Position numbers and translations under genes: made by a program. Source: Paraburkholderia edwinii (GTDB lineage: Bacteria > Pseudomonadota > Gammaproteobacteria > Burkholderiales > Burkholderiaceae). Taken from it: a stretch of DNA of 64,000 nucleotides. Below the pieces are notes generated by a model. It saw only the letters and a list, made by a program, of their open reading frames with translations, was not told the origin of the DNA and made no database searches. Of the stretch, positions 40,316 to 64,000 are shown piece by piece; position 1 is the stretch's first letter; each line of letters begins with the position of its first letter. The stretch is taken from the NCBI RefSeq assembly GCF_019428685.1, contig NZ_CP080096.1, forward strand, positions 1,054,001-1,118,000. The letters are read 5' to 3'.

Positions 40316-41434
40316 TCAGGCTGCGAGCGGAGGCAGCGTTTCCAGTTCCTTCGTATACGCGCCGTCCATCTGCATCGCCAGGCCGATCTTTTCCAGCTCC
40401 GATGAAAACGTCGAACGGATGACCGGATTTTCGTCCGCGTAGTCGATCTGGCAACCGCCGATGCGCCGTGAAATCCACGCCTTCGGCACGCCTTGCGAAT
40501 TGCGCTGAGAGACGACCTCGTGTTTGAGCGCGAGATAACGCGACGGATTCGGGTTCGTGTTGAAGTGCTGATGAAACTCGCCGTTGGCCGGCGTGATCAG
40601 CGAACCTGTCTGCCAGTCGTAACGCTTCGGCTCTTCTCCCTCACGCCACATCATTGAGTACCCTGAACCACTCATGATGATGACGTGCGCGCCGGGACCA
40701 TGGGAGTGCGCTTTTTTGTAAGTCGAGGTCGGGAATTGAGAAATGTGGCTGTTCTGCGAACCGCGCGCCATGTTGAAACGGATATGACCGCCGCCGGCGC
40801 CCCGTTCAGCGGCGCTGATCAGCGGCAGGTTCACTGCGTCAGCGACAAAATTCGTTTCCATCAGCAGGCCCTTCTGCTCACCGCCGTTCGCGAAGTAGTC
40901 GGGCTCGCCGTTAAAGCGGTTCTTGAAATCGTACGCCGTGCCGAAGATGAAATCGATGTCTTCGAGCGCGTTGATCGTGGGCGGGCCGTTCGTGACCGAG
41001 ACAAAACGCGCGGCATCTTTGCCGGACGTGTTGTAGTGCGTGTGCCAGCAGTTCAGGGGGATGGCGAAGAGGGCACCCGCCTGCCATTCGAACGTGACTT
41101 CCGCACCTGCTTCGTTGCGAACGGTAGTCGACCCGCGACCGCTCAGCACGTAGATCATTTCTTCGAACAACTGGCGCTGCGGTGCGAGCGATTTACCCGG
41201 CGGGATTTCGCAGACGTAGCAGTCGTTCGACGTGCGCGACGCTTCGTGATTGATGTACACGCCCTTGCCTCCACGACGCGCCCAATCTTTCAGATCAACC
41301 GTACGCAAGTCCTGAATATAGTGACCGTCGATGATGTCCAGGCCTTGCTGGGCAATCCAGCGCGTATACGCCGTTTCCTTCTCGGTAGCGAATTTCTTCG
41401 CCATGTCCTCGGAAACAACTGCGTTCTTGCTCAT
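40316..41434 (-). CDS. Double-cupin protein (gentisate-dioxygenase-like)
   Basis: Bicupin of 372 residues, related to ring-cleaving dioxygenases of the gentisate 1,2-dioxygenase type. In the first cupin the expected HxH is replaced (APQRQLFEE, residues 84-92), so it probably lacks metal, although H131 and H133 remain in CWHTHYN. The second has His243 and His245 (KAHSHGPGAH) and His288/His290 (EFHQHFN), giving a three-histidine site without the usual Glu. Three-His cupins bind Fe, Ni or other divalent metals. AGAAG lies before the start. It is homologous to the partial cupin at 63027, and both lie near an EutA-like gene. Confidence 0.85.
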   Translation of the reverse strand: MSKNAVVSEDMAKKFATEKETAYTRWIAQQGLDIIDGHYIQDLRTVDLKDWARRGGKGVYINHEASRTSNDCYVCEIPPGKSLAPQRQLFEEMIYVLSGRGSTTVRNEAGAEVTFEWQAGALFAIPLNCWHTHYNTSGKDAARFVSVTNGPPTINALEDIDFIFGTAYDFKNRFNGEPDYFANGGEQKGLLMETNFVADAVNLPLISAAERGAGGGHIRFNMARGSQNSHISQFPTSTYKKAHSHGPGAHVIIMSGSGYSMMWREGEEPKRYDWQTGSLITPANGEFHQHFNTNPNPSRYLALKHEVVSQRNSQGVPKAWISRRIGGCQIDYADENPVIRSTFSSELEKIGLAMQMDGAYTKELETLPPLAA

Positions 41435-41512
41435 TCACTTCTCCATTCAATGCGGGTTGCGCACACCACAAGATAGCTCGCGGAGCTGCAAGCTAACTGA
41501 TTCAGGCGTTGT

Positions 41513-42121
41513 TTAGACGGTGGCCGTGTGCTTCAGATATTCGCGAATCTTCTCGGCTGTGAGCGTGACGGCCGGATCGTATTCCGGTGCGTCTTCGAGT
41601 TGCTGCAGATCGTTGAGGCCGCTCTTCCAGAAAATGCGGTTGATCGCGGAGATCAGGCGCACGGGACGATCCGGGTCTGCGTTGAAATGCTGATGGGCGG
41701 TGCCGGGCGGAATATAGATCACGTCGCCGGCTTCCCATTCGAAGCGCTTGACGTCACCGACCGGCTTCCACGCGTACTGATCGACGATTTCGACATCGAA
41801 GTCCTGGTGCAGGTCATAGCCGCGACCTTCGAGCACGTAGAGGCATTCTTCAGCCAGGTGACGGTGCTTGCCCGACTTGCTGCCCGGCGGAATGATCTGC
41901 ATGTATGCGTCGACGGTCTCCATGCGCGTGTTCATGCCTTCGTTCAGCAGGTGCTTGAGCAGGCCTTGGCGCGACATCTCCCACGGCATGTTCTCAGGTC
42001 GCACGATCTTCGCGCGTTTGGCGTTACGCTCCGCGGCCTGTTCAGCGTTTTCCAGCAGACCCTTGTAAAGCGCACGATTTTCTTTGCCAGCCAACCAGTT
42101 TCCCGATTCGGTCCATGCCAT
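41513..42121 (-). CDS. Single-cupin protein
   Basis: Protein of 202 residues with one cupin barrel. Its metal site looks complete: His86 and His88 in GKHRHLAEE, Glu91 or Glu92, and the second motif with His143/His145 in TAHQHFNAD. The N-terminal 60 residues are helical and charged. It begins 2 bases after the stop of the cupin gene before it. It may be a dioxygenase, isomerase or a subunit paired with the neighbouring cupin. The HQHFN string is shared by all cupins of the island. Confidence 0.85.
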   Translation of the reverse strand: MAWTESGNWLAGKENRALYKGLLENAEQAAERNAKRAKIVRPENMPWEMSRQGLLKHLLNEGMNTRMETVDAYMQIIPPGSKSGKHRHLAEECLYVLEGRGYDLHQDFDVEIVDQYAWKPVGDVKRFEWEAGDVIYIPPGTAHQHFNADPDRPVRLISAINRIFWKSGLNDLQQLEDAPEYDPAVTLTAEKIREYLKHTATV

Positions 42122-42123
42122 GA

Positions 42124-42744
42124 TCAGTAGCCTCCTTCCGGATGATTGAAATCAGTCTCTTCCATGCGCGCGACGAAACCAGCACCGGTTGGCGACGGCT
42201 CATCGGGACGAGGCTCGACAGTCTTCTGGAACAGCATGTTCATGAACATGAACATCGGCTTCGTCTTGATGACGAGCGCACGCGCAGGCTTGTCGAGACT
42301 ACGGTTGAAGTGTTGGTGCACGCAGTTGTTGTGCACGATCGCGATGTCGCCTGCTTCCCAGTCGTAGCGGACGCCGTCGTGCACTTCATAGCCGATGCCG
42401 TCGAGAATGTAAAACGCTGCTTCGTTCACGTGGCCGTGCTTCTGCGAGTGACCGCCCGGCGAGTATTCTTCGAGGTGAATGTGGAACGTCTGCGTGATTC
42501 CGTTCTTCGGCTGCACATAGTGGCGGCTGAAGGTCTGCGGTCCCTTGCTGAACTTGATTTCTTTCCCTTTGCGCACGCGCGGAACGGAACGCAGGCGTTC
42601 CAGTTCTACGTTCAGGTTGTACGCGCCTTCAATGCCACGCACGAATACGCGATTTTTCACGTTGCCCGCGGGACTGTGATGCGATTCTTCAGCGCGCTGA
42701 TCCTCTTCATACATCTGGTTCGTGTCGATATTTGCTTCAGACAT
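42124..42744 (-). CDS. Single-cupin protein
   Basis: Protein of 206 residues with one cupin barrel near residues 85-175. The metal site is complete: His103, His105 and Glu108 in QKHGHVNEA, and His143/His145 in CVHQHFNRS. The first 35 residues are acidic and probably flexible. AAGGAGTC lies before the ATG. It follows the ABC ATPase gene after 26 bases, in the same operon. It is paralogous to the next cupin and could form a heteromer with it. Confidence 0.85.
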   Translation of the reverse strand: MSEANIDTNQMYEEDQRAEESHHSPAGNVKNRVFVRGIEGAYNLNVELERLRSVPRVRKGKEIKFSKGPQTFSRHYVQPKNGITQTFHIHLEEYSPGGHSQKHGHVNEAAFYILDGIGYEVHDGVRYDWEAGDIAIVHNNCVHQHFNRSLDKPARALVIKTKPMFMFMNMLFQKTVEPRPDEPSPTGAGFVARMEETDFNHPEGGY

Positions 42745-42770: not shown

Positions 42771-43871
42771 TTACTGAGGGTTCAACGCGACACAGCGGGC
42801 TGGATCAATCGTCACCCAGATTTTTGCGCCAACCGGCTCGCGATGTGACGGATGCGCGCGTGCGAGCAGAATCTGTTCACCGACCTTGATCTGCAAATCA
42901 AGCGTCTCGCCAAGGAATACTTTGGAATAGACGGTTCCTTCAAACACATTGCCGTGCCCGATCGATGGCTTACGATCGAAAATCTCCAGATTCTCGGGGC
43001 GCAACGACACGACGGCTTTTGCGCCGACGTTCATGCCGCCGCTGTGGGTCACCGTGATCGGGCCGATAGTTGAATTAATGGTGAGCTCCTCGCCGTTCGT
43101 GTCCCGGACGGTGCCATCGACAAAGCTCGTTGTGCCGATGAAATCTGCTACAAACCGATTAGCCGGCTGTTCGTAGATACTGCGAGGGCGTGCCTTCTGG
43201 ACGATGTGGCCGTCCTTCATGATCGCGATCTCGTGCGACATCGCGAGCGCTTCTTCCTGATCGTGCGTCACGTAGATCGTCGTGATGTTCAGTTCACGTT
43301 GCAAACGCTTGAGTTCGAAACGCATCTTGTCGCGCAGCTTCGCGTCGAGGTTCGACAGCGGCTCGTCCAGCAGCAGCAGTTTCGGCTCCATCACAATCGC
43401 GCGGGCGAGGGCCAAACGTTGCTGCTGCCCGCCGGACATCTTCGTTGCATCGCGATCCGCGGCATGATCGAGGCCGACTGCGGTGAGCGCACGCATGACC
43501 TTCGCGGTGATCTGCTGTTTCGTAAATTTCTTCTTGCCGACTTCAAGCGGGAAGCTGCAATTCCTGAAGACGGTCATATGCGGCCAGATGGCGTACGACT
43601 GAAACACCATGCCAAACTGGCGTTTGTTCGGCGGTACGAAAATCTTGCGATCTGCATCAAAGACGGTCACGCCGTCCGCCGTGATCTTTCCACCATCGGG
43701 CTTTTCGAGTCCTGCGATCGAGCGCAGGGTAGTGGATTTACCGCATCCGCTCGGGCCGAGAAGCGTGAACAGTTTGCCTTCGGGGACCTCGAAACTGACA
43801 TTTTCAATGCCTGCGACTTTGGCGCCGTGACTGTCGAGATACACCGTGTTCAGATTCTGAATATTCAGCAT
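42771..43871 (-). CDS. ABC transporter ATP-binding protein (PotA/FbpC-like)
   Basis: ATPase of 366 residues. Walker A is GPSGCGKST, the signature MSGGQQQRLALARA and Walker B LLLLDEPLSNLD; a C-terminal TOBE-like regulatory domain follows from about residue 285. It powers the fused permease encoded just upstream. Family members import iron, polyamines or organic acids such as 2-aminoethylphosphonate. Confidence 0.94.
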   Translation of the reverse strand: MLNIQNLNTVYLDSHGAKVAGIENVSFEVPEGKLFTLLGPSGCGKSTTLRSIAGLEKPDGGKITADGVTVFDADRKIFVPPNKRQFGMVFQSYAIWPHMTVFRNCSFPLEVGKKKFTKQQITAKVMRALTAVGLDHAADRDATKMSGGQQQRLALARAIVMEPKLLLLDEPLSNLDAKLRDKMRFELKRLQRELNITTIYVTHDQEEALAMSHEIAIMKDGHIVQKARPRSIYEQPANRFVADFIGTTSFVDGTVRDTNGEELTINSTIGPITVTHSGGMNVGAKAVVSLRPENLEIFDRKPSIGHGNVFEGTVYSKVFLGETLDLQIKVGEQILLARAHPSHREPVGAKIWVTIDPARCVALNPQ

Positions 43872-43901: not shown

Positions 43902-45638
43902 TCAGATCGATTTCACGCCGAATTTGCTGCCCACCCACTGCGCGAGCGATACGAGCGCGAGCAGGCCAATCGCGAACATCACACTCAATGCCGACAGCTC
44001 GACGTATTGACCGTTTTGCCACAGCTCCCAGACCACGACGGAAATCGTTTCGCTACCAGGGCTATACAGCAGGATCGATGCGGACAGCTCACGGATCGAC
44101 ACAATGAACACGTAAATCCAGCCGGCCATCAGACCGGGCTTGAGTAGCGGCAAGACGATACGGGAGAACGTCGTGCCCCAGCCAGAACCGCACATTTCCG
44201 CGGACTCTTCCAGCTCCTTCGACAATTGCACCATCGACGTTTGCGTATAGCGCATCCCATACGGCATGAACCGCGTGATGTATGCAATGAGGAGAATCGA
44301 CAGCGTGCCGTAAATACCGATGTTGACGTTCAGGAAGAAGACCATGAATGCCAGGCCTAACACGAGTCCCGGAAACACCATCGGAAGCGATGCGAGGTTA
44401 TCGAGCAGCCAGCGGCCGCGAATCTTCGTCTTGATCACGATCCAGCACACAATGGAGGAAAGCAGCATCACACCCGTTGCGCACGAGAAGCCGAGAATCA
44501 GGCTGTTGCCTACGGCTTCTCTAAGTTCGGGATAACTGAAGATGTAGCGATAAGAATCGAGCGTCAGATGATGCAGGGCTTCCATCGATGGCGGCGCATA
44601 AAACTTCTGGAAGGAAGACCACAGCAGCACGAGCAAAGGCAGAACCACGATGACAAGCGCGTACAGCACAAAGAGCGCGGCAGTCAGATAGCGCCATGGT
44701 CCAAGGTCGATGGCGCGTGCGCGGAATGCCTTCCCGCTGACCGTCGTGAATTTTCCGCCCTTGGCAAGCAGGCGGCTCTGAAGGAAGATGCCGGCCGAAG
44801 TGATGAGCAGCAGGATCGTTGAATAGGAGGCAGCCAGTCCGGTCGGCGTCGGATATTGCTGCAACGCCTCGTAGATCGACGACGTGAGAACCTGGATTTT
44901 TACCGGCAGGCCGATCAGCGCAGGCACTTCGAACGATTCGACGGCACGCACGAAAAGGATAAGGACCGTCGAAACGATTGCGGGCACGGCAAGTCGGAAG
45001 GTGATGCTGAATGTGGTCTTGAACAGGCCGGCGCCACTCATGATGGCGGACTCTTCCAGTGATGGGTCCATGCCACGAAATGCAGCGGACATCAGCAGGA
45101 AAGCCATGGGGGAATATTGCAAGCCGTCGATCCAGATCATCCCGCCCATGCTGTAGATGTTGAACGGCGGGTGCGAAAGATCAAACAAGTGCATCAACGC
45201 AACGTTCAACACGCCGATCTTCGGGCTGGCAAGCAGAATCCACGCAATCGTAAAGAGGATTGCCGGATTGATGAGCGGAACGACCGTGACGACCGAAAAG
45301 AAACGACGCAAAGGCGTATTGGTGCGCTCGTTTATCCAGGCAAGCGCTGAGCCGACGACGAACGAAACGAGTGCGGCGCCAATGGCGAACTCCACCGAAT
45401 TCGCGAAAGCCGACCAGGAGTCGGCGCTGCCGAACGCAATGCGGTAGTTGTCGAGCGTGAATACCGACGGCGTATCTGCACCCTGCGGCGTCATAAAGCT
45501 CTGCCACAGCAGGAAACAAAGCGGGATCAACGCCAGCACGGCGACGATAAGGATCGCGCTGCCTACCACCAGCCATTTTGAATCGAGCCGCTTCAAGAAT
45601 CGAGGCGGCGTATTGGTGACATCAAGTTGAAGCTCCAC
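43902..45638 (-). CDS. ABC transporter permease, fused two-domain (AfuB/FbpB-like)
   Basis: Inner-membrane protein of 578 residues containing two complete permease domains in one chain, about 12 hydrophobic helices. Each half has a permease EAA-like loop: one near ESAIMSGAGLFKTTF and one near ESAEMCGSGWGTTFSRI. It is the first gene of the minus-strand ABC-cupin operon, 28 bases downstream of the strongest regulon box pair. Confidence 0.93.
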   Translation of the reverse strand: MELQLDVTNTPPRFLKRLDSKWLVVGSAILIVAVLALIPLCFLLWQSFMTPQGADTPSVFTLDNYRIAFGSADSWSAFANSVEFAIGAALVSFVVGSALAWINERTNTPLRRFFSVVTVVPLINPAILFTIAWILLASPKIGVLNVALMHLFDLSHPPFNIYSMGGMIWIDGLQYSPMAFLLMSAAFRGMDPSLEESAIMSGAGLFKTTFSITFRLAVPAIVSTVLILFVRAVESFEVPALIGLPVKIQVLTSSIYEALQQYPTPTGLAASYSTILLLITSAGIFLQSRLLAKGGKFTTVSGKAFRARAIDLGPWRYLTAALFVLYALVIVVLPLLVLLWSSFQKFYAPPSMEALHHLTLDSYRYIFSYPELREAVGNSLILGFSCATGVMLLSSIVCWIVIKTKIRGRWLLDNLASLPMVFPGLVLGLAFMVFFLNVNIGIYGTLSILLIAYITRFMPYGMRYTQTSMVQLSKELEESAEMCGSGWGTTFSRIVLPLLKPGLMAGWIYVFIVSIRELSASILLYSPGSETISVVVWELWQNGQYVELSALSVMFAIGLLALVSLAQWVGSKFGVKSI

Positions 45639-45665: not shown

Positions 45666-45702
45666 GTTCCTATATATGGAACGGCGTTTCCATTTCAGGA
45701 TG
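45666..45702. promoter_or_regulatory. Tandem 20-bp-phased regulatory boxes, pair 3
   Basis: GTTCCTATATATGGAAC (45666-45682), a perfect 17-bp palindrome apart from the centre, and the weaker GTTTCCATTTCAGGATG (45686-45702), starts 20 bp apart. The pair overlaps the probable promoter or leader of the ABC permease operon (minus strand). Confidence 0.85.
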
Positions 45703-45947: not shown

Positions 45948-47750
45948 ATGCCGAACGATGCAAAAAACGTTCATTCGCTTGACGATCACCTGGGCGGCTA
46001 CGATCCTGACCATGAGCATGGTGACGACGCTGATCATGACCACGATCACGATTTTTCCCAGTCCGAAACAAATCAGGAAGCGGTGTGGCTGCTCGATAAC
46101 GTCGTTCTCAACAGCGTAGGTATCGATATCGGTTCGTCGGGTACGCAACTCGTGTTCTCGCGCATCCATATGCGGCGCATCGCTGAAGAGCTCTCGAGCC
46201 GTTACATCATCGTCGGGCGTGAACCGATCTACCAGAGCCCGATTTCGCTCACGCCATACCTGAGCGAAACGCAGATGGATACGCGCGGGCTCAAGCGTAT
46301 CGTTGCGGCGGCCTACAAGGAGGCCAATCTTGGTCCGGACGACATCGATACAGGTGCTGTGATCCTGACCGGCGAAGCGCTACGGCGTGAGAACAGTGAG
46401 GGCATCGCGGATATGCTCGCGGAACAGGGCGGCGAATTTGTCTGCGCGACGGCCGGGCATCACATGGAAGCGATGCTTGCCGTTTATGGTTCTGGCGCCG
46501 CGAAATACTCGCACGAGCACAAGAAGCGCGTGCTCAATGTCGATATCGGTGGCGGCACGACCAAGCTCGGCTTGGTGGATTCCGGCAACGTGATCGGTAC
46601 GGCCGCGGTTCACCTTGGTGGACGTCTGATCGTGACAGATCAGAAAGGGCGCATCACGCGCCTCGACCCGGCGGGTAAAGACCACGCACGGGCAGCAGGA
46701 TTCGCTTGGGAAATTGGCAGTCAAACGACGCGCGAACAGCTTGAACAGGTTGCCGACTGGATGGCGCAAACGCTTGTGCGTGTGCTGACCGAGCGCTTCA
46801 CCGCTGACGATCTGAATTCACTGTTCCTGACCGATCCGATTGCGGACTTGGGTAAACTGGACGGTCTGATTTTCTCGGGTGGTGTCGGCGAATATGTTTA
46901 CGAGCGTGAAACACGGGACTTTCTCGATCTTGGGAAACTTTTCGGTTCCGCGGTGCGTCAGCGCTTGCTCGCTGCTCAAGTGCCCTGGCCGCTGCTACCT
47001 GCCATCGAATGCATTCGCGCGACCGTTCTAGGCGCATCGGAATACAGCATCCAGTTGAGCGGTAACACGACGTTCATTTCGAATCCGCGCAACCTGCTGC
47101 CACGCAAGAATATGCAGGTCGTGCCGATCGAAGAGCGCATGCCCGAAGTGATCGATCCTGCCGCGGTCGTTCAATCGCTGCGCAAGAGCTTCCAGCGCTA
47201 CGACCTGAAGGAGGGCGATCGGGATGTGGCAATCGTAGTGCGTTGGGCGGGGCCACCCGAATATTCGCGTCTGGCTGCACTCGCTCGCGGGTTGATCGAC
47301 GGCAATCCGCGGACCATCGCGGCTGGCAAGCCGCTGTATGTCATTGCCGATGGAGACATTGCCAATTCGCTCGGCAACCTGTTGCGCGAATCACTGGGTG
47401 GAAATGACCTGTTCGTGATCGATGGCGTTTCGCTGCGAGGGCTCGATTACGTCGATCTGGGCCGCATCCGTATGCCGTCACGCACGGTTCCGGTCACGGT
47501 CAAATCGCTGGTGTTCAGCGAGGATCCCAGCCTGCACGGCAAATCCGATGCATCCGAATGGCATGCGCACGAAGATGGCACCGTACATCGTCACCATCAC
47601 CCTGTAACCGCAGGCAAGCATCAACATCACGATCATGCACACGCACACGGCCATCACCATCATCACAATCATGACCATAGTCACGGTGCTGATCACGGGC
47701 ATCACCACCATGTGGATCACACGCGTGACCACGCAGGCAGTCACGACTAA
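45948..47750 (+). CDS. EutA-like actin-fold ATPase with His-rich ends
   Basis: Protein of 600 residues related to EutA, the reactivating factor that exchanges damaged cofactor from ethanolamine ammonia-lyase. The phosphate-1 loop is SVGIDIGSSGTQ (57-66 region), phosphate-2 is NVDIGGGTTKLGL (197-209) and FSGGVGEYVYERE is the adenosine region. The N terminus has an Asp/His stretch (residues 7-35), and the last 64 residues hold about 28 His (HHHHHNHDHSHG and similar), as in nickel storage or insertion proteins such as HypB and UreE. EutA of E. coli is about 467 residues and has no such tails. No eutB or eutC is present. Neighbours are cupins, NikR and a NiCoT permease, so a metal-enzyme chaperone is inferred. 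Confidence 0.85.
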   Translation: MPNDAKNVHSLDDHLGGYDPDHEHGDDADHDHDHDFSQSETNQEAVWLLDNVVLNSVGIDIGSSGTQLVFSRIHMRRIAEELSSRYIIVGREPIYQSPISLTPYLSETQMDTRGLKRIVAAAYKEANLGPDDIDTGAVILTGEALRRENSEGIADMLAEQGGEFVCATAGHHMEAMLAVYGSGAAKYSHEHKKRVLNVDIGGGTTKLGLVDSGNVIGTAAVHLGGRLIVTDQKGRITRLDPAGKDHARAAGFAWEIGSQTTREQLEQVADWMAQTLVRVLTERFTADDLNSLFLTDPIADLGKLDGLIFSGGVGEYVYERETRDFLDLGKLFGSAVRQRLLAAQVPWPLLPAIECIRATVLGASEYSIQLSGNTTFISNPRNLLPRKNMQVVPIEERMPEVIDPAAVVQSLRKSFQRYDLKEGDRDVAIVVRWAGPPEYSRLAALARGLIDGNPRTIAAGKPLYVIADGDIANSLGNLLRESLGGNDLFVIDGVSLRGLDYVDLGRIRMPSRTVPVTVKSLVFSEDPSLHGKSDASEWHAHEDGTVHRHHHPVTAGKHQHHDHAHAHGHHHHHNHDHSHGADHGHHHHVDHTRDHAGSHD

Positions 47751-47771: not shown

Positions 47772-48206
47772 TCACACGTGCAAATGCTCGTGTGGCGGAG
47801 CGTGCTCTTCCATCAACGGCATCAGATGCAGGTTGCTGTTGCGCACACCACGTTGTGACGCAAGCGACCATGCGAACTGCTGAATCGTACCCACTGGACC
47901 GCGCAGCACGATCATTTCCAGGCAATTGTCGTGATCGAGATAGATGCGACTGCCGCTAACGATCAGCGCGTGTTGTGCGTGATACGCATCCGATAAGCGC
48001 TGCGCGAGGTCGCGCACGCCGTGCTCAAACACAATCGTCAAGGTGCCGACGCATTGTGCGTGGAGGTCATCGAGAAGCTCCCCTGAACGATGGGCGCGCA
48101 GGATGTCACGCAGCGCCTCCGAGCGGCTGTTATAGCCGCGCTGCTTCATCGTGTCGTCAAGCGTCGAGAGCAGGACATCGTCAATCGTAATCGTGATGCG
48201 TTGCAT
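47772..48206 (-). CDS. nikR: NikR-like ribbon-helix-helix metalloregulator with altered metal site
   Basis: Regulator of 144 residues. The N-terminal ribbon-helix-helix (QRITITIDDVLLSTLDD, RSEALRDILR) and the ACT-like C-terminal domain align with E. coli NikR. Of the four nickel ligands, His76 and Cys95 are kept, but His87 is Arg and His89 is Tyr (GSRIYLDHDNC). Extra histidines appear at the C terminus (HAPPHEHLHV). It may sense nickel differently, sense another metal, or have lost metal sensing. It is convergent with the EutA-like gene and divergent from the NiCoT permease. Confidence 0.85.
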   Translation of the reverse strand: MQRITITIDDVLLSTLDDTMKQRGYNSRSEALRDILRAHRSGELLDDLHAQCVGTLTIVFEHGVRDLAQRLSDAYHAQHALIVSGSRIYLDHDNCLEMIVLRGPVGTIQQFAWSLASQRGVRNSNLHLMPLMEEHAPPHEHLHV

Positions 48207-48279: not shown

Positions 48280-48316
48280 GTTCCAAATACAGACATGTCG
48301 TTCTTATATATGGAAC
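48280..48316. promoter_or_regulatory. Tandem 20-bp-phased regulatory boxes, pair 5
   Basis: GTTCCAAATACAGACAT (48280-48296) and GTTCTTATATATGGAAC (48300-48316), starts 20 bp apart. The second is almost identical to box 1 of pair 3. It lies 89 bases before the NiCoT permease and 74 after the nikR start, so it could control both. Confidence 0.85.
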
Positions 48317-48404: not shown

Positions 48405-49454
48405 ATGATTCAATTCCTGAAATTTCTGTTCAATGATGCCGACACAAATATTCGAGGCCGTATAGGCGCGATGTATGTGCTCCTGGTCGTGTTCAACCTC
48501 GGAGCATGGGCGTGGGCATTCATCGCGTTACACGGGCAACCGGTGTTGCTCGGCACGGCCCTTCTTGCCTACAGCTTTGGGTTGCGTCACGCAGTCGACG
48601 CCGACCATATCGCCGCCATCGATAATGCGACGCGCAAACTCATGCAGGAGGGGCAGCGACCGGTGACGGTGGGGTTCATGTTTTCGTTGGGTCATTCGAC
48701 CGTCGTCGTCGCCGCAACCGCTGCGATTGCGGCTACCGCCATGGCGTTGCAACATCGCTTCGAGGCGTTTCAGGAAATTGGCGGCGTGATCGGTACGCTG
48801 GTATCGGCGGGCTTTCTGTTCGTGATCGCGGCCATCAATCTCATCGTGCTGAGATCGGTGTTTGCGACATTTATGCGCGTGCGCCGGGGCGAGCGCTACG
48901 ATGAAGAAGATTTCAACCTGCTGCTCGCCAATCGCGGCCTGCTCGCGCGCATTTTCAAGCCGATGTTCCGCCTGATTACGCGAAGCTGGCATATGTACCC
49001 GCTCGGCGTGCTCTTCGGACTTGGCTTTGATACGGCATCCGAAATAGGATTACTCAGCGTGTCGGCCACGCAGGTGTCGCATGGTGTGCCTATCTGGTCG
49101 ATCATGGTATTCCCCGCGCTGTTCACGGCAGGAATGTCCCTCGTTGATGCGACCGACAGCATCCTGATGTTAGGCGCGTACGGCTGGGCGTTTATGAAGC
49201 CGATTCGCAAGCTCTATTACAACATGACGATCACGCTAGTGTCGGCGGTTGTCGCAATCGGCGTTGGCGGAATAGAAGCGCTTGGGCTGATCGCGGACAA
49301 ATTGCATCTGAACGGCGCGTTCTGGGATGTAATCGGTGAGATTGGCGATAATTTCGGGGTGGTCGGCTATGCGATTATCGGCCTCTGCGCGTTCATCTGG
49401 CTGGCCTCTACCATCGTCTACAAGTGGCGGCGTATCGATGAACTGGAAGTGTGA
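48405..49454 (+). CDS. NiCoT-family nickel/cobalt permease
   Basis: Inner-membrane transporter of 349 residues with about eight hydrophobic helices and the family metal signature RHAVDADHIAAIDN (H-x4-DH) in helix 2, plus GFMFSLGHSTVVV. NiCoT proteins take up Ni(II) or Co(II) with high affinity. It lies behind regulon pair 5, next to NikR and the His-rich EutA-like protein. No nickel urease or hydrogenase genes are in the window, so its metal may serve the cupin or EutA-linked enzyme. Confidence 0.93.
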   Translation: MIQFLKFLFNDADTNIRGRIGAMYVLLVVFNLGAWAWAFIALHGQPVLLGTALLAYSFGLRHAVDADHIAAIDNATRKLMQEGQRPVTVGFMFSLGHSTVVVAATAAIAATAMALQHRFEAFQEIGGVIGTLVSAGFLFVIAAINLIVLRSVFATFMRVRRGERYDEEDFNLLLANRGLLARIFKPMFRLITRSWHMYPLGVLFGLGFDTASEIGLLSVSATQVSHGVPIWSIMVFPALFTAGMSLVDATDSILMLGAYGWAFMKPIRKLYYNMTITLVSAVVAIGVGGIEALGLIADKLHLNGAFWDVIGEIGDNFGVVGYAIIGLCAFIWLASTIVYKWRRIDELEV

Positions 49455-50696: not shown

Positions 50697-50725
50697 GGTG
50701 CGAAGTGAACAGAGGTTAAAAGTTT

Positions 50726-50762
50726 GTTCCGCATAAAGGAACTGCATTCCGATTTATACCTG
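50726..50762. promoter_or_regulatory. Tandem 20-bp-phased regulatory boxes, pair 6
   Basis: GTTCCGCATAAAGGAAC (50726-50742), perfect arms, and ATTCCGATTTATACCTG (50746-50762) with only its left arm kept; starts 20 bp apart. It lies upstream of the CHR pair on the minus strand. Confidence 0.75.
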
Positions 50763-53411: not shown

Positions 53412-53470
53412 ATAAGAGGAAACGGATTACAACTGCGTTGCGCAACAACAGCACCCCCGAGGCACATACC

Positions 53471-54760
53471 ATGTTGAGAAAAGAGCAGAACGATCTCGTC
53501 ACACAAACCGGCCCCGGTACCCCGATGGGCGAACTGTTCCGTCGTTACTGGCTGCCGGCGTTGCTGTCGGAAGAACTGGCGGAGCCTGGGGGCGAACCGG
53601 TTCGTCTGCAACTGCTCTCGGAACGCATGCTTGCGTTCCGGGATTCGGACGGCAAGCTGGGCCTGATCGATGAATTCTGCGCACACCGTGGCGTGTCGCT
53701 GTGGTTCGGCCGCAATGAGGACGGCGGTATTCGCTGCCCGTACCACGGCTGGAAATACAACGTGACCGGTCAATGCACCGAGGTGCCGTCCGAAGCAAAG
53801 GAAAGCGGCTACGCGGAAAGGATCAAGCTGAAGTCGTATCCGCTCGTTGAACAGGGCGGCGTCATCTGGGTGTACATGGGGCCGGCCGACCAGCAGCCGC
53901 CCCTTCCCGCATGGGAGTTCTCGACTGTGCCGGCACGACAGTCATTCATGAGCAAGCGGATTCAGGAATGCAACTGGCTACAGGCGCTCGAAGGCGGCAT
54001 CGATTCAAGCCACGTTTCGTTCCTGCACAGCGGCAGCCTCAACGCCGATCCGTTGTTCAAGGGCGCCAAGGGCAACCAGTACAACATGAACGACCTCGCG
54101 CCCGTCTTCGAGGTTGTCGAAGCGTCCGGCGGCCTGGCAATCGGCGTGCGGCGCAACGCAGAGGACGATCAGTATTACTGGCGTATTACGCCGTGGGTCA
54201 TGCCTTGCTTCACGATGGTTCCTCCGCGTGGCGATCACCCGATACATGGCCACTTCTGGGTGCCGATTGACGATCACAATTGCTGGGCCTGGAGCTTCGA
54301 TTACCATCCGACGCGCGATTTGACGGAAGGCGAAGTGCAAGCCATGAGGGACGGCAAGGGTATCCACGTGCGCTATGTGCCGGGCAGCAACTACGTTCCC
54401 GAGCAGAACAGGACGAACAACTATCTGATGGACCGCGCGGCACAGAGGGCGGGCACCACGTACAGCGGGGTGGAAGGCATCGCCATGCAGGATGCCTCGC
54501 TTCAGGAGAGCATGGGGCCGATCCAGGATCGTACGAGAGAGAACCTGGTTGGCACCGACAACGGCATCATCATGATGCGCAGCCGGATCATGAAATCCGC
54601 GCGTGCACTCGTCGAGCACGGCACGCTGCCGCCGGGCCGCGATGCGGAGTCGCAGAAAGTTCGCTCGGTTGCCATTCTGCTGAAGCGCGAAACTCCGTTC
54701 AGCGACGGCGCACGCGATGCAATGATCGCGGAAGCAGGCAAGAAACACCAATCGATCTAA
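53471..54760 (+). CDS. Rieske non-heme iron oxygenase (phthalate 4,5-dioxygenase type)
   Basis: Oxygenase alpha subunit of 429 residues. The Rieske centre is CAHRGVSLWFG (Cys70, His72) and CPYHGWKYN (Cys89, His92). The mononuclear iron site is visible in GGIDSSHVSFLH: Asp178, His181 and His186. This gene resembles OphA2-type phthalate 4,5-dioxygenases, which hydroxylate aromatic acids using electrons from a separate reductase, and need no beta subunit. The ATG at 53471 is chosen because the conserved domain begins there. A reductase and a decarboxylase-like gene follow on the same strand. The substrate is not determined. Confidence 0.92.
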   Translation: MLRKEQNDLVTQTGPGTPMGELFRRYWLPALLSEELAEPGGEPVRLQLLSERMLAFRDSDGKLGLIDEFCAHRGVSLWFGRNEDGGIRCPYHGWKYNVTGQCTEVPSEAKESGYAERIKLKSYPLVEQGGVIWVYMGPADQQPPLPAWEFSTVPARQSFMSKRIQECNWLQALEGGIDSSHVSFLHSGSLNADPLFKGAKGNQYNMNDLAPVFEVVEASGGLAIGVRRNAEDDQYYWRITPWVMPCFTMVPPRGDHPIHGHFWVPIDDHNCWAWSFDYHPTRDLTEGEVQAMRDGKGIHVRYVPGSNYVPEQNRTNNYLMDRAAQRAGTTYSGVEGIAMQDASLQESMGPIQDRTRENLVGTDNGIIMMRSRIMKSARALVEHGTLPPGRDAESQKVRSVAILLKRETPFSDGARDAMIAEAGKKHQSI

Positions 54761-54837
54761 AGCCCCTGCAACTCCGCTGTTCAAAGAGGTATTCGTTCGA
54801 GCCGCCGGAAAAAGGACGCAAAGCACGAATACCCGAC

Positions 54838-55875
54838 ATGGATGAGACTCTTGTGAATAACCAGAATCATCGCATCACGCTTGCGGGCACCGATCAGTTC
54901 TTCGAATGCGCTAACGATGACGTACTGTTGCGATCGGCCCTCCGGAATAACATCGCGTTTCCATACGAGTGCAATGTAGGCGCGTGCGGCAACTGCAAAT
55001 TCGAACTGATCGAAGGCGCGGTTGACGCCAGATGGCCCGAGGCGCCTGGCTGGACCGCGAAGGACCGCGAGCGCCGTCGTCATCTTGGCTGTCAGAGCAC
55101 GCCGCGAGCCGACTGCACGATCAGGATACGTCCAAGTCAGCACTACGCGCCTATACATCGACCGAAGCGTGTGACGGGTACGCTCACATCGCGTCGCCCG
55201 GTCACGCACGATATCTGGGAATTCCGCTTCGAGCTTGCCGATGACATGCGATTTGAGCCGGGACAATACGCGTTGCTGACGCTACCCGGCGTTAGCGGTC
55301 AGCGGGCCTATTCGATGAGCAACATCGTGCAAGGCTCGCATGCAAAGGTGCTTGATTTCCAGGTGCGCCGCGTACCGAATGGTCGCGGGAGCAACGCGCT
55401 GTTCCACACCCTGGCGACCGGCGATGAGGTCGGGATCGATGGTCCCTACGGTATGGCCTATCTGCGTCGGGACGTGAAACGCGACATTCTATGTCTCGCC
55501 GGCGGTTCGGGCCTGGCGCCGATGATTTCGATCGCGCGCGGTGTGGCGGCAGACCCGGAAATGCGGGGCGTCAGACTGAACTTCCTGTATGGCGGTCGTT
55601 CGCCACGTGATGTGTGCGGACGCGACATGCTCGAAGCGCTCGAGAATTTCGGCGAGCTTCTTCATTTTGACGCAGCCGTTTCGGACGCGGGCGGTGAGCA
55701 GTGGGGCGGTCACACCGGCTTTGTGCACGAACTGGCTGAGTCGATGTTCGGTGATCGCCTGCGCGACATGGAAATCTATTTTGCGGGACCCCCTGCGATG
55801 GGGCAGGCGATCCAGAAGATGCTGCTGGCGCACGGCGTGTCGTTCGGACAGGTGCACTTCGACCAGTTCTATTGA
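54838..55875 (+). CDS. Oxygenase reductase: 2Fe-2S ferredoxin plus FAD/NAD(P)H domains
   Basis: Reductase of 345 residues. The N-terminal plant-type 2Fe-2S domain has Cys45, Cys50, Cys53 and Cys85 (YECNVGACGNC and LGCQ). The FAD-binding site includes RAYSMSN and the NAD(P)H domain LCLAGGSGLAPMISIAR. This order is that of BenC- and XylZ-type reductases, rather than the OphA1 order with the ferredoxin at the C terminus. It feeds electrons to the oxygenase, 77 bases upstream. The start at 54838 lacks a strong ribosome site. Confidence 0.9.
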   Translation: MDETLVNNQNHRITLAGTDQFFECANDDVLLRSALRNNIAFPYECNVGACGNCKFELIEGAVDARWPEAPGWTAKDRERRRHLGCQSTPRADCTIRIRPSQHYAPIHRPKRVTGTLTSRRPVTHDIWEFRFELADDMRFEPGQYALLTLPGVSGQRAYSMSNIVQGSHAKVLDFQVRRVPNGRGSNALFHTLATGDEVGIDGPYGMAYLRRDVKRDILCLAGGSGLAPMISIARGVAADPEMRGVRLNFLYGGRSPRDVCGRDMLEALENFGELLHFDAAVSDAGGEQWGGHTGFVHELAESMFGDRLRDMEIYFAGPPAMGQAIQKMLLAHGVSFGQVHFDQFY

Positions 55876-55903
55876 TTTTTCTTCGCACTCTAAAGGAGAC
55901 AGC

Positions 55904-56896
55904 GTGAGCAAGCTGCAGCTTTCAGTTGCGGTCGGCCCCTATGACCGTATGCGCCCCTTGGTCGATGGTGAAGTGCAGATCGAGGGCGTCGATCCGACAT
56001 TCATGTTGCAGGAACCCGAGGAAATCTTTTTTCGCGCGCTGCGTCACGCGGATTACGACATCTGCGAACTGTCGTTAAGCAGCTATTCGGTCAAGACAGC
56101 AGCGGGTACGTCGGCCTACGTTGCGATTCCGGTATTCCCGTCGCGGGCGTTCCGTCACACGTCGGTGTATGTGAACGCAAACGCGGGTATCAACAAACCG
56201 GAAGATCTGAAGGGCAAGCGCATCGGCGTGCCCGAATATCAGTTGACCGCGAACGTGTGGGTGCGCCTGTTCCTCGAGGAGGAATACGGCGTCAAGGCAT
56301 CGGATGTCACGTGGGTGCGTGGCGGTTACGAAGACCCGACGCGCGTCGAAAAGATCAGTCTGAATCTGCCTGAAGATGTGGAACTGGCGAACGCACCCGA
56401 AGGCAAAGCGATTTCCGGCATGCTCGACGCCGGTGAAATCGATGCGCTGATCGGCCCGCGCGCACCGTCGTGTTTCGAGCGCGGCTCCCCGAACGTGAAG
56501 TATCTGTTCGACGATCCGCAGGCAGAAGCCGCGGCCTGGTATCGCAAAACAAGGCTGTTTCCGATCATGCACACGCTTGGCATCAGGCGCACGCTCGTTG
56601 AACAGCATCCGTGGCTGCCGATGTCGGTGATGAAGGCCTTCGAGAAATCGAAAGCGATCGCACTGCACCGTCTGACCGATACATCGGCTACGAAGGTGAC
56701 ATTGCCGTTTATCGAGACTCAACTGCGCGCCGCGCGCGCATTGATGGGCGACGATTTCTGGTCGTACGGTTTCGCCGCGAACGAACATACGCTCAATCGA
56801 TTCCTCGCGCAGCACCACGCGGAAGGACTGTCGAGCCGCCTGCTGGAGGCGAAGGATCTGTTCCATCCGGCGAGTCTCGAAAGCTTCAGCATTTGA
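55904..56896 (+). CDS. 4,5-dihydroxyphthalate decarboxylase-like (solute-binding-fold) protein
   Basis: Cytoplasmic protein of 330 residues with no signal peptide. It resembles OphC/Pht5, the 4,5-dihydroxyphthalate decarboxylase that has a periplasmic-binding-protein fold: LSVAVGPYDRMRPLVDGEVQIEG, GKRIGVPEYQLTANVWVR and DALIGPRAPS. It would remove a carboxyl group from the product of the preceding oxygenase. GTG start with AAAGGAGAC upstream. Some relatives are thiamine-precursor or taurine binding proteins; lack of a leader argues for the enzyme. Confidence 0.85.
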   Translation: MSKLQLSVAVGPYDRMRPLVDGEVQIEGVDPTFMLQEPEEIFFRALRHADYDICELSLSSYSVKTAAGTSAYVAIPVFPSRAFRHTSVYVNANAGINKPEDLKGKRIGVPEYQLTANVWVRLFLEEEYGVKASDVTWVRGGYEDPTRVEKISLNLPEDVELANAPEGKAISGMLDAGEIDALIGPRAPSCFERGSPNVKYLFDDPQAEAAAWYRKTRLFPIMHTLGIRRTLVEQHPWLPMSVMKAFEKSKAIALHRLTDTSATKVTLPFIETQLRAARALMGDDFWSYGFAANEHTLNRFLAQHHAEGLSSRLLEAKDLFHPASLESFSI

Positions 56897-60431: not shown

Positions 60432-61388
60432 TCAGCTATTCAAACTCATTAACTCACTGGAGTTTCGAATAATGCAATCAATCATTCCGGGATGGTCACT
60501 GCTTAGATGGGTTCCACCTTCGATAGGGTGAAACACCGATTTTTTCCATGCCTTGATTAACGCGTATACGCCGATGGGCGTAACCTCGTCACGCGTACCG
60601 TGAATTAACGCACCGGGAATGTCATGCAATTGATCGGCATTGTTGAGTAGCTGGTGAGGTGACAGGAATCCGTCATTCAGAAAGTAGTGTACGGAGATGC
60701 GAGCCATTGCCAACTCTTGCGCCTTTGTTTCTGGGCCTGTTTCGCGTTCCTGGTCTCGCAATCCGGCCAGATGGTCTTCCCAGGCGCACCACAAATAAGC
60801 CGCCTCGTATTCCTCTTCTGGGACGCCGCAATTCAATACCTCCCCGTAGGCCTGTAGGAGATCTTGACGTCCGGTGGCGCCGGTCCATCCGGAGAATTGT
60901 TCCCAGGCCTCGGGATGCAGGCGACCGGCGCCGCCTCCATAAAGCCACTCCAGTTCGTTTCCGGTGCAGAGAAAAACGCCGCGCAGGAGCAGGGCGCGGA
61001 CCCTTTGTCGACGGGTTTGCGCATAGACCAGGGCCAGCGTGGTCCCCCAGGATGCACCGGAAATAATCCAGCGTTCAATACCGAGCAGGGTGCGTACTTG
61101 CTCAATATCGGAGATCTGATCGTCTATCGTGTTGTGCTCTACGCTGGCCGCGGGCGTAGAACGGCCAGCTCCGCGTGGGTGAATGAGCACGATTCGATAA
61201 CCGAAGGGATTAAAGAATCGCGGATCCTGGCGGTTAGGGAAACCGCCGGGGCCTCCGCATAGATGCAGCAAGGGAACTCCCAGGGGATTGCCATGGGCCT
61301 CCCAGAAGACGCGATGACCGCCGCTGGCATCGATCCAACCGGATTCGCGGGCGGTGCTTGGGGGATAAAGATCGCGCAGATAGATCAT
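60432..61388 (-). CDS. Alpha/beta hydrolase of the prolyl aminopeptidase family
   Basis: Serine hydrolase of 318 residues. The oxyanion region HLCGGPGGFP, the nucleophile elbow GASWGTT (catalytic Ser) and the C-terminal IEGGTHLSSDHPG (His) match proline iminopeptidase. It might cleave N-terminal proline from peptides or act on another amide or ester. Its start overlaps the stop of the EutA-like gene by 4 bases, an unexpected partnership for a peptidase. Confidence 0.88.
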   Translation of the reverse strand: MIYLRDLYPPSTARESGWIDASGGHRVFWEAHGNPLGVPLLHLCGGPGGFPNRQDPRFFNPFGYRIVLIHPRGAGRSTPAASVEHNTIDDQISDIEQVRTLLGIERWIISGASWGTTLALVYAQTRRQRVRALLLRGVFLCTGNELEWLYGGGAGRLHPEAWEQFSGWTGATGRQDLLQAYGEVLNCGVPEEEYEAAYLWCAWEDHLAGLRDQERETGPETKAQELAMARISVHYFLNDGFLSPHQLLNNADQLHDIPGALIHGTRDEVTPIGVYALIKAWKKSVFHPIEGGTHLSSDHPGMIDCIIRNSSELMSLNS

Positions 61389-62935
61389 CGCGCGGCTTCG
61401 GTTGCCGTTCCGGTCACGGGTTCAAACGCCGCTTGGCCCAAACCGCTTGACGTCGGGAACACCAGGGATTTGATCACTACGGGCGCCGCCGAGGCCGTAG
61501 GAAGTAGTTCACCGATGTCAACAAAATCGAATTCCTTGAGTGAGATCCCGTCTATGGAAACGATGGGCACCGGGAGGTCGCGTTCCCGCTTGAAGTGGAT
61601 GCCGATCAAGCCGCCGACATCGCCCTCACCGATCAGGACGATAGGTTGCCCGGCTGCGATCCGCATGCGCATGGCGTTCATGACACCGACAACAAACGCG
61701 TCCATGCGGCGATAGAAGGCGGTCCCGGCAAACCGATAGAAGAGGGCAACGGCCTTCGTGTCCGACTGCAGGTCCATCCGCTCAAGCGCTGTGGTGACTG
61801 CCTTTTCGATGTCGTTGGGGTCGAGTTGATCGGGCTCGAGATCGAAATCGAGGACCACTACCGGGAGGTTGCGCAGCGGAAGAACCGACTGCGGTTCAAC
61901 ATAAACCGTGCTGCCACTGACTTGAACCGTGTATTGCGAGGCACCGACGACGGTGGCCCGGATACCCTCATCCGTTTCCCTGATTTCAGCTCCCGAGGCT
62001 TCGATGCGCTTGCGAACCGCGGCGGCCAACATCAAGCCCAAGTCGCCGAATACCCGTGTTTCGCGGCCGTAAACGTATTCCGAAACACCGCCCGAGAACG
62101 TGACAAGATCGGGAACCCGCGCGCCTTCCAGGGGCGTGAGGCGCAGCAACGAAGCCGTTAGCGGACTGAGTTCCGCGCCGTTCTTCATCGACGCCTCGCA
62201 CAGGCGCTCGGCCATGCGGTCAACGATCGCCTCCAGTACACCGGGGAGCGGGGGATAACCCACGGTCAGCGTGGCGCCAACCTCCTCGGCAAATCGTTCG
62301 CCCGCGGCTTCGACACGGGTAACGCTGCCTTCCGCGTCAAAGGTAATGATGCGGGCGCCGATGTCGATCGCGGTCACGCTTTTGACCTCGCCATCTTCAC
62401 AGATAGCGATCTTCGTGGTCCCGCCGCCAATATCCAGATGGAGCAGGCGGGTACCTTGACGCAGCGCACGCAAGACGGCGCCGGAACCGAACGCGGCCAG
62501 CATGGATTCGAGACCATCGCCGGCGGAGACCGAAACGAACTTGCCCGCCTGCGCTGCAAACAGATCACCGATTGCGCGTGAATTACGACGGCGGACCGCC
62601 AGGCCGGTCAGGATCAGGGCGCCGGTATCAATCTGATCCGGCGTGACGCCCGCCTTTTCGTATTGCTCATCAATGAACGCACCCAGCCGGATCTCGTCGA
62701 TCGTCAGATCGTCGGTGTACGGGGTGATCAAGATATCCGATTCGTGAAGGATCGTACGTTGTGCGACGATGTAGCGCGTGGTCGTTCGTTCGAGAACGAT
62801 GTGCGAAATGACCATGTGGGAAGTGGAGGACCCGACATCGATTCCCACGCTGACCAGGTGGATTTCATCTTCTTCCTCCAGACTTCGGCCGGTGTCGGTA
62901 AAGAAGATCCGACCTTCTTGCGGCTCGTTGCTCAT
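61385..62935 (-). CDS. EutA-like actin-fold ATPase, second copy
   Basis: Protein of 516 residues homologous to the EutA-like protein at 45948. It has SVGIDVGSSTSH (phosphate 1), HLDIGGGTTKIAI (phosphate 2), and FSGGVSEYVYGRE. It lacks the His-rich ends. The ATG at 62935 is chosen because GGAG lies before it. It follows the cupin gene at 63027 in the same direction and overlaps the peptidase gene. As with copy 1, no eutBC genes are nearby, so its client enzyme is not ethanolamine ammonia-lyase in this window; the cupin is the closest candidate. Confidence 0.88.
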   Translation of the reverse strand: MSNEPQEGRIFFTDTGRSLEEEDEIHLVSVGIDVGSSTSHMVISHIVLERTTTRYIVAQRTILHESDILITPYTDDLTIDEIRLGAFIDEQYEKAGVTPDQIDTGALILTGLAVRRRNSRAIGDLFAAQAGKFVSVSAGDGLESMLAAFGSGAVLRALRQGTRLLHLDIGGGTTKIAICEDGEVKSVTAIDIGARIITFDAEGSVTRVEAAGERFAEEVGATLTVGYPPLPGVLEAIVDRMAERLCEASMKNGAELSPLTASLLRLTPLEGARVPDLVTFSGGVSEYVYGRETRVFGDLGLMLAAAVRKRIEASGAEIRETDEGIRATVVGASQYTVQVSGSTVYVEPQSVLPLRNLPVVVLDFDLEPDQLDPNDIEKAVTTALERMDLQSDTKAVALFYRFAGTAFYRRMDAFVVGVMNAMRMRIAAGQPIVLIGEGDVGGLIGIHFKRERDLPVPIVSIDGISLKEFDFVDIGELLPTASAAPVVIKSLVFPTSSGLGQAAFEPVTGTATEAAR

Positions 62936-62960
62936 ACGTGTCTCCAGTCCATAAAAGACC

Positions 62961-62988
62961 GGGCTGTGCCCCTGAAAGAACACAGCCC
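62961..62988 (-). terminator. Hairpin between the cupin and EutA-like genes
   Basis: Eight-bp stem GGGCTGTG (62961-62968) with CACAGCCC (62981-62988), loop of 12. On the minus strand it is followed by TCTTTTAT. It may be a weak terminator that lowers expression of the EutA-like gene relative to the cupin. Confidence 0.55.
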
Positions 62989-63026
62989 TCTACACTCACT
63001 ACCTGCGGACCCACTACACGAACGCA

Positions 63027-64000
63027 CTAAACTACCGAGTCACCGACATTCTTTTCCGGCTTGACGTACCACGAAGCGTTCATACGGCTTTGCACGCCAT
63101 TCTTCGCCAGGCGTGATTCGTACTCTTGACGGATATACGGATCCTCCATCCAGTAGGGAATAGCCGTGCCGCCGGAGCCGACGTCCTGAGCCGTGTAATC
63201 GGTATGCTTCGAACCCGGGGCACCCGGATCACGCCCCGGGTTGTGCGGACCAAACCATGCCGTCAGGCGGAACGGTTCGCTGGACGTGCTGAAGTGCTGG
63301 TGGTACCAACGTGCGCCGCCAGGCGCTGCGGTAACCATTCCGCCGTAACCGTAGTCGAGGCGACGAACCTTGTCCGCTTGACCGGTGGCCCACGGGGTTT
63401 CACCACATTCTTCCGGCCACGTGTACGTATAGCCTTCACCCTTCAGGCAGATGAGGATTGCTGCTGACGTGTGAGCGTGAGCCTTCGAATAGCGGCCTTG
63501 CTCGTGCTGACCGATCCAGAAGTAGAAGCAGTTTTCCGTCATGAATGGCTCAACGCGGCGATAGCCCGGCGAACGACGGTTGTCCAGCGGCAGATCGCAG
63601 TTGACCGCGTCGGTGATCAGGTTGGTACGACGACGGGCAAGACCGCGCACCGGATCCGTTTCGATTTCATCGCGCGGCTTGTAGAAATCTTCGTCTGCAC
63701 TGAAGCGATCACGGAACACGAACGGGTTGTTAAACACCGCTTCGACGTTGTTGATCTGATTCATCACGTTCGGCGCCGTGTTGCCTGCGAGCAGAACCGC
63801 GCCGGAGTTCGAGCCGTCAACGATGCGGAACCAGGCGTTCATCGGAATCGAGAACATCGAGCCGGCTTGCCATTCGAAGACATGCTTGCGGCCTTCGCCT
63901 TCGAGCCAAACCTCAGTGGTGCCACGGCCTTCGACCACCCAGTAGATTTCCTCGAACATGTGCTTTTCGGGGTTCAGTGCGCCGCCGGCGGGCACTTCAA
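63027..64000 (-). CDS. Double-cupin protein (gentisate-dioxygenase-like), 5' end outside window
   Basis: At least 323 residues of a bicupin; the frame stays open to base 64000, so the N terminus is missing. It is homologous to the cupin at 40316: first domain PEKHMFEEIYWVVEGRG has a single His, and the second has HAH in SKAHAHTSAAI and YHQHFST, again a three-histidine site without Glu. The second copy has the same neighbour type, an EutA-like gene 91 bases downstream. A metal-dependent ring-cleavage dioxygenase is likely; the substrate is unknown. Confidence 0.83.
   Translation of the reverse strand, partial: EVPAGGALNPEKHMFEEIYWVVEGRGTTEVWLEGEGRKHVFEWQAGSMFSIPMNAWFRIVDGSNSGAVLLAGNTAPNVMNQINNVEAVFNNPFVFRDRFSADEDFYKPRDEIETDPVRGLARRRTNLITDAVNCDLPLDNRRSPGYRRVEPFMTENCFYFWIGQHEQGRYSKAHAHTSAAILICLKGEGYTYTWPEECGETPWATGQADKVRRLDYGYGGMVTAAPGGARWYHQHFSTSSEPFRLTAWFGPHNPGRDPGAPGSKHTDYTAQDVGSGGTAIPYWMEDPYIRQEYESRLAKNGVQSRMNASWYVKPEKNVGDSVV

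Follow-up and report, generated by a model that had tools for sequence, protein, structure and literature searches.

EutA belongs to the actin/Hsp70-like group of ATPases. According to a published account (PMC5821096), EutA uses ATP to strip damaged cobalamin from ethanolamine ammonia-lyase, and reactivases of the EutA type are known for B12 enzymes. Here we examined a 64,000-nucleotide stretch of the Paraburkholderia edwinii contig NZ_CP080096.1 (positions 1,054,001 to 1,118,000; hereafter the window), in which two EutA-like genes, EutA1 and EutA2, each lie in a block with a double cupin, or bicupin, named BC1 and BC2, respectively. The initial annotation had proposed the cupin, or an enzyme in the cupin's pathway, as the client of such an ATPase. 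The co-occurrence of the two genes across genomes, the matched trees of their paralogues and the fact that 35 of 44 related genomes gave no eutB match all supported this proposal, and sequence comparison now makes an EutA-cupin partnership well supported. In the literature searched, nothing was found on EutA paired with cupins; the EutA of two literature matches is presumably a different protein, involved in ectoine use.

Both EutA-like proteins of the window span positions 3-474 of the 475 positions of PF06277 and are 38% identical to each other. Against the NCBIfam EutA equivalog they scored 322 and 308 bits versus a cut-off of 598, and three other matching models were likewise below their cut-offs. 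In a tree of 52 EutA proteins, the cupin-linked members formed one group apart from four canonical ones (support 98/95), with the canonical rows on long branches according to a program warning and their exact placement unsure. The cupin-linked group splits into four classes, of which E2, E3 and E4 are firmly supported and E1 less so (69/92). Residues G10, D12, G14, D152, G154, G155, T157, S262, G263 and G264 (E. coli numbering) were kept in at least 97% of the 52 rows, E. coli EutA included, and we take these to be nucleotide-site residues. A C-terminal tail with at least eight histidines in the last 60 residues was found in 92 of 97 E1 proteins and in none of the 102 others (0/41 E2, 0/36 E3 and 0/25 E4), and an N-terminal HDHD-type motif was present in 79 of 97 E1 and 18 of 25 E4 proteins. 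The EutA-like protein might be a catalytic subunit which phosphorylates or ATP-activates the substrate for the neighbouring cupin; this would account for one EutA per cupin step, and the wider ATPase fold includes kinases. Such a role is nevertheless distinctly unlikely, because the homology to EutA is full-length, the proteins group beside the EutA of eutBC loci, and E4 accompanies two single cupins, not a bicupin.

The two bicupins showed 31% identity over 312 aligned positions, taking the part of BC2 inside the window. In BC1 numbering, each of three bicupin classes (33, 20 and 19 rows) retains H243, H245, H288 and H290 in no fewer than 90% of its rows, and position 250 is H, V and H by class. 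All four residues sit in the C-terminal cupin, the only domain with histidines common to all classes; the N-terminal cupin has no HxH in BC1 and keeps one histidine in BC2 and BC3. A three-histidine metal site in a protein with two cupin domains is therefore present, where Pfam scores one cupin stretch per protein and the second was seen in the alignment. The initial annotation had described two EutA-like ATPases, each in a block with a homologous three-histidine double cupin, and this description held. New relative to it are the two single cupins, the histidine tails of EutA1, the neighbouring NikR and nickel/cobalt transporter genes, a COG0523 GTPase gene close outside the window, and a shared operator. 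BC1 scored 30.9 bits against NF049978 (cut-off 650), and BC2 matched no equivalog family. The closest solved relatives of the BC1 profile, both remote, were auxin-binding protein (E 3e-5) and gentisate 1,2-dioxygenase (3bu7, E 7e-5), and the BC2 profile had no solved-structure match at E 0.1. The BC1 block also holds two single cupins, cS1 and cS2, with 26% identity over 174 positions; cS1 matched gentisate 1,2-dioxygenase 3bu7 in the PDB (E 1.8e-7) and showed marginal similarity to acireductone dioxygenase (E 0.002).

GTDB genomes were scanned with a 12-sequence alignment, by which at least 525 relatives were confirmed among at least 588 pattern matches, and the 80 best loci were retained. 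Annotation with models that were built from the same loci, and may miss distant cupins, found a cupin of one of the four kinds in 65 of these 80 loci and a bicupin in 62; 14 of the 15 cupin-less loci were shorter than 15 kb. Whole-genome searches were then made for 45 of the 80 loci, covering 44 genomes that were selected for E1 and not for E2-E4 copies. A bicupin match was found in all 44 genomes. At least 101 of the 116 EutA matches, which include a few pieces of one gene, lay within 20 kb of a bicupin, compared with about 5.6 expected when the 168 bicupin matches were placed randomly. At least 59 lay within 500 nt of one, 55 of them co-directional, versus 0.5 expected; both counts are lower bounds, as they cover 150 of the 168 bicupin matches. 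The co-occurrence suggested by the window was thus borne out across genomes. Each class has its own partner: E1 goes with BC1, E2 with BC2, E3 with BC3, and E4 with cS2/cS1, two single cupins replacing one double. In the window BC2 precedes EutA2 on the same strand, with 43 nt between the two genes; among 23 distinct co-directional EutA/BC2 neighbours BC2 came first in all 23, with a gap of at most 130 nt in 18.

The absence of an ammonia-lyase gene from the window was confirmed. No eutB was found in the window or in the flanking DNA, where an eutBC operon could have explained the EutA-like genes. The only eutB of the genome is on another contig (C1:203043), far from any EutA, and the two EutA-like genes might serve this ethanolamine ammonia-lyase in trans, or be misnamed remnants. 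We regard this as scarcely credible, because EutB was matched in only 9 of the 44 genomes and in none of the 80 loci, and both genes retain their open frames and their nucleotide-site residues. Canonical EutA adjoins EutB or EutC in loci L198, L282, L283 and L288-L290, and in E. coli K-12 (L285) eutA and eutB are separated by a prophage.

Further samples were taken without regard to EutA. Among 250 genomes from the family of a Limnohabitans genome (centre included), BC1 was found in three and full EutA in four; three of these four were the genomes with BC1, and the fourth has EutA beside EutB. Among 298 genomes from the family of a Beijerinckiaceae genome (centre included), 25 had EutA, 24 of them with three to five matches and the remaining one with a single canonical copy beside EutB. 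Eighteen of the 24 were newly read, and 13 of these hold all four classes; a cupin was within 6 kb of 56 of their 69 EutA genes, and cS1 was the nearest cupin to E4 in 11 of 17 cases. In a class-wide sample of 369 genomes, EutA at 1e-20 was found in two besides the genome of the window, one beside EutB and one as a contig-end fragment. On plasmids, 25 records had an EutA match and five were read: two rhizobial ones lie next to bicupins, and three haloarchaeal ones, next to eutBC, were rejected as cupin-linked since they are canonical. The Phyllobacterium zundukense plasmid (L287) carries an E3-bicupin pair, its bicupin annotated as a hypothetical protein, beside a thiamine-diphosphate enzyme, YjbE-type metal transport and threonate-use genes.

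The trees of the two partners were compared using 42 co-directional pairs separated by no more than 500 nt (19 E3, 17 E2 and 6 E1), and their tree distances correlated with r 0.891. The best of 2000 overall shuffles reached 0.184, and the best within-class shuffle 0.866, so that 0 of 2000 reached the observed value. Shared locus ancestry contributes to r, and the match therefore shows joint inheritance, not contact. Earlier pair sets with divergent or distant neighbours gave lower values, r 0.575 for 50 pairs and 0.462 for 89 pairs (thinned from 102 by dropping EutAs at least 95% identical), with best shuffles of 0.185 and 0.098; the drop arises from the frequent back-to-back placement of E1 and a BC2 that already has an E2 of its own. 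The test covered EutA-cupin pairs only. It bears on the idea that the client is another enzyme of the regulon, such as a Rieske oxygenase, reductase or decarboxylase, with the cupins as mere neighbours. A reductase was found in 35 and a Rieske oxygenase in 28 of the 80 loci, and several such genes share the operator described below. Yet in L101 (14.6 kb) EutA1 and BC1 are the sole recognised families, in L100 a transporter-receptor match is the sole addition to these two, and the trees match for EutA-cupin pairs, the kind of pair compared, which together make another client highly improbable.

A 17-bp palindrome of the GTTCC-N7-GGAAC type was recognised by eye before abcP/EutA1 and before the nickel/cobalt transporter in four Paraburkholderia-type loci, and a matrix was built from these 8 sites. 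The matrix found five further sites in the window, scoring 17.5-20.9, and one upstream of the BC2-EutA2 string (L004:16505, window 72505; score 19.7). In 100 shuffled windows the best scores averaged 11.1 with a maximum of 18.3, so the 17.5 site before the Rieske oxygenase is not by itself beyond chance. Across the 80 loci, many of them closely related, 105 sites scored at least 15, including six matrix-building sites from three loci; they were spread over 42 loci, with 100 falling outside recognised genes, versus 1 in one shuffle per locus. Ten stretches outside the cluster gave best scores of at most 10.7. Such matches suggest that the operator links the promoters of the cupin, EutA, Rieske oxygenase, IclR and nickel/cobalt transporter genes, and the IclR protein may be what binds this putative operator. 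In four loci, the gaps abcP-EutA1 and NikR-transporter showed no consistent NikR-like site (exact 6-bp inverted repeats, 8-22 bp spacing).

NikR is nickel-specific, and transporters of the kind found here may carry cobalt too. In the window the NikR gene directly follows EutA1 and is convergent to it, and the nickel/cobalt transporter comes next; in all four Paraburkholderia-type loci examined, the operator stands before the transporter. One model places NikR below its cut-off (TIGR02793, 129.5 vs 175). Within 6 kb of 79 E1 genes, NikR was found at 23 and a NicO-family transporter at 34, and in 21 of the 80 loci the transporter was the next recognised gene after EutA1, co-directional with it. 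A NiFe hydrogenase was found in 4 of the 44 genomes; among the 12 genomes whose locus includes NikR (G426-G437), 2, both metagenome genomes, gave no urease match, and all 12 gave no NiFe hydrogenase match. A link to B12 was rejected, as Rfam, applied at gathering thresholds to the window and to loci of four relatives, found no cobalamin riboswitch, nor a nickel one. In class E1, the histidine tails and the nickel genes speak for a metal role. They would also suit an insertase or assembly chaperone that supplies the new cupin with nickel (or cobalt) once only, with tails that hold the metal and ATP that inserts it, given that histidine tails, NikR, the nickel/cobalt transporter and a COG0523 GTPase all occur in and around E1 loci. 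We consider an insertase unlikely, since E2 and E3 pair as tightly with their cupins, yet the tail is found in 0/41 and 0/36 and metal genes nearby are few or none.

The explanation we hold to be moderately probable is that a cupin-dedicated EutA branch uses ATP to (re)activate three-histidine cupins or to load them with metal, probably nickel in E1. At the sequence level it draws on the single EutA group, the nucleotide-site residues, the class-specific pairing, the matched trees, the operator and the nickel genes, and from these we infer a mechanism, a metal and a substrate. Each EutA class would serve its own three-histidine cupin (BC1, BC2, BC3 or cS1/cS2), expressed with it from one operon or regulon. 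Like EutA on a B12 enzyme, the ATPase would bind the inactive cupin, presumably by physical contact; by analogy with the action of EutA on ethanolamine ammonia-lyase, ATP would then open the cupin, letting a damaged or wrong metal, or a bound cofactor, exit and fresh metal enter. For E1 this metal would probably be nickel; the histidine-rich tails would hold it, and the co-regulated nickel/cobalt transporter, perhaps with the COG0523 GTPase, would deliver it. The cupins probably act as dioxygenase-like enzymes in a pathway that is under IclR control and handles aromatic or similar acids. More tentatively, ATP-driven reactivases could form a general class that serves metal enzymes other than those with B12, in which EutA-type ATPases renew the metal (nickel in one class) of turnover-inactivated cupins, with up to four co-evolved pairs per cell. 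A protein search over at least 8000 candidates gave at least 7991 homologues of EutA1, canonical EutA possibly among them. If a large share of them is paired with cupins, mononuclear metal enzymes would come within the reach of ATP-driven repair, the database name of these EutA-like proteins would need correcting, and freshwater and soil bacteria may harbour a nickel-dependent catabolic pathway that awaits discovery.

Several observations weigh against metal renewal by a dedicated EutA branch. In many betaproteobacteria E1 lies about 4.5-8.5 kb from BC1 and not adjacent to it, so that E1 hardly enters the tree test. In the 18 newly read genomes, 13 of the 69 EutA genes had no cupin within 6 kb, 7 of these 13 being within 2 kb of an end of the stretch analysed. 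Several E2 genes lack BC2, and the E4 genes of L180, L184, L264 and L267 are beside formate dehydrogenase genes with no cupin found nearby. No operator of score 15 was present in 38 of the 80 loci, and NikR or the transporter was within 6 kb of only 34 of the 79 E1 genes. NikR, the transporter or COG0523 was near 5 of 24 E2, 0 of 22 E3 and 1 of 8 E4 genes, and urease, another possible use for nickel genes, was found in 33 of the 44 genomes.

Two arrangements among these loci can be described separately. In L225, L228, L233, L236 and L238, an E2 gene without BC2 stands back to back with E1, and four of these five loci have two BC1 copies instead. In L179, L180, L184, L264 and L267, the E4 genes adjoin genes for NAD-linked formate dehydrogenase subunits, checked against Pfam in L180 and L179 and by eye in the others. 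As a guess, the cupin step may release formate, as hinted by these genes next to some E4.

Table 1 Features of the two EutA-cupin blocks and operator sites (window positions)
Feature	Position	Strand	Evidence or remark
Operator	31620		before porin-like gene at 31898; matrix-found
Operator	35494		matrix-found
ABC substrate-binding protein	39159..40220	-	PhnS-type model matches, every one below cut-off
Bicupin 1 (BC1), 372 aa, three-histidine site in C-terminal cupin	40316..41434	-	Cupin_2 4.6e-13; motif and class alignment
Single cupin cS1, 202 aa	41513..42121	-	Cupin_2 1.7e-13
Single cupin cS2, 206 aa	42124..42744	-	Cupin_2 8.2e-12
ABC transporter ATPase	42771..43871	-	PF00005 5.9e-36
ABC transporter permease (abcP)	43902..45638	-	PF00528 2.1e-19
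Operator	45666..45682		between cupin/ABC operon and EutA1; score 22.4; matrix-building site
EutA-like ATPase E1 (EutA1), 600 aa, histidine-rich N and C tails	45948..47750	+	PF06277 7.2e-117; tails in relatives' alignment
NikR nickel-responsive regulator	47772..48206	-	PF08753 1.6e-23; NF002815 144 bits (cut-off 83)
Operator	48300..48316		between NikR and nickel/cobalt transporter; score 21.3; matrix-building site
HoxN/HupN/NixA-type nickel/cobalt transporter	48405..49454	+	TIGR00802 421 bits (cut-off 333)
Chromate-transporter-like gene pair	49593-50747		named by eye
Operator	50726..50742		start of chromate-transporter-like pair; score 20.4, matrix-found
IclR-type regulator	50973..51809	-	PF01614 9.6e-43
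Operator	51975..51991		between IclR and class II aldolase gene; score 18.4, matrix-found
Class II aldolase/decarboxylase-like	52099..52833	+	PF00596 6.1e-32
Operator	53395..53411		before Rieske oxygenase; score 17.5, matrix-found
Rieske oxygenase, LigXa-like	53438..54760	+	PF19301 7e-34, PF00355 3.4e-18
Ferredoxin-type reductase, about the 3' two thirds of the open reading frame (ORF)	54280..55875	+	ORF; by-eye likeness to Fer2/FAD/NAD-domain family representative
NMT1-like protein, gene shorter than ORF	55589..56896	+	PF09084 2.1e-5
Alpha/beta hydrolase	60432..61388	-	PF00561 3.5e-17; 4-nt overlap with EutA2
EutA-like ATPase E2 (EutA2), 532 aa, no histidine tail	61385..62983	-	PF06277 6e-108
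Bicupin 2 (BC2), 406 aa	63027..64247, past window end at 64000	-	Cupin_2 4.6e-7; full gene L004:7027-8247

As listed in Table 1, the minus-strand string left of EutA1 runs from the permease through the ATPase, cS2, cS1 and BC1 to the substrate-binding protein, whose family was found in 48 of the 80 loci, and EutA1 is transcribed away from this string across a 309-nt gap. The class II aldolase-like protein scored 73 bits against NF053537 PhtC, under the cut-off of 200, and the NMT1-like protein presumably resembles dihydroxyphthalate decarboxylase. Beyond the window, upstream of BC2 and on the same strand, there are a histidine-phosphatase-like gene and a COG0523 GTPase with a histidine-rich insert; the same string further includes genes for an alcohol dehydrogenase, an HpaI-type aldolase, an amidohydrolase, which we take to be LigJ-like, an alpha/beta hydrolase and a PanB-like protein, and a further gene that we assume to be dihydroxyphthalate decarboxylase-like. 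LysR-type and protocatechuate 3,4-dioxygenase-like genes, named by eye, adjoin the BC2-EutA2 string at L004:16880-20000.

The two EutA genes of the window are the only full-length ones in the genome; a third match covers 48 model positions at 28 bits and is, we assume, FtsA. Among 58 relatives, 34 from the genus and 24 from the order of this genome, no full-length EutA match was found; the matches were short and weak and one relative had none, and for this reason the EutA/cupin block looks acquired. Elsewhere in the window a selenocysteine system was observed, with SECIS_3 (13958-14016) at the start of a formate dehydrogenase frame, tRNA-Sec (22584-22675), and selA/selB-like genes, named by eye, between them.

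Compared with described systems, COG0523/CobW, HypB and UreG share nucleotide-driven metal delivery and histidine-rich stretches with the present proteins, and a COG0523 member occurs in the string upstream of BC2; they are G3E GTPases, however, and EutA is not among these. Quercetinase and acireductone dioxygenase are likewise cupin enzymes able to use nickel, but no EutA-type partner was met for them in the literature searched. The gentisate/5-aminosalicylate 1,2-dioxygenase bicupins resemble the window cupins in their two cupins and HxH...H site, with weak BC1 matches (NF049978, 3bu7), whereas BC1 reaches 31 of the required 650 bits and the window cupins are accompanied by a dedicated ATPase. 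EutA (PF06277) itself resembles the window proteins over its full length and in the kept nucleotide-site residues; these proteins differ in forming a separate group (98/95) below all four NCBIfam equivalog cut-offs, in having cupin partners in place of eutBC, and, for class E1, in carrying histidine tails.

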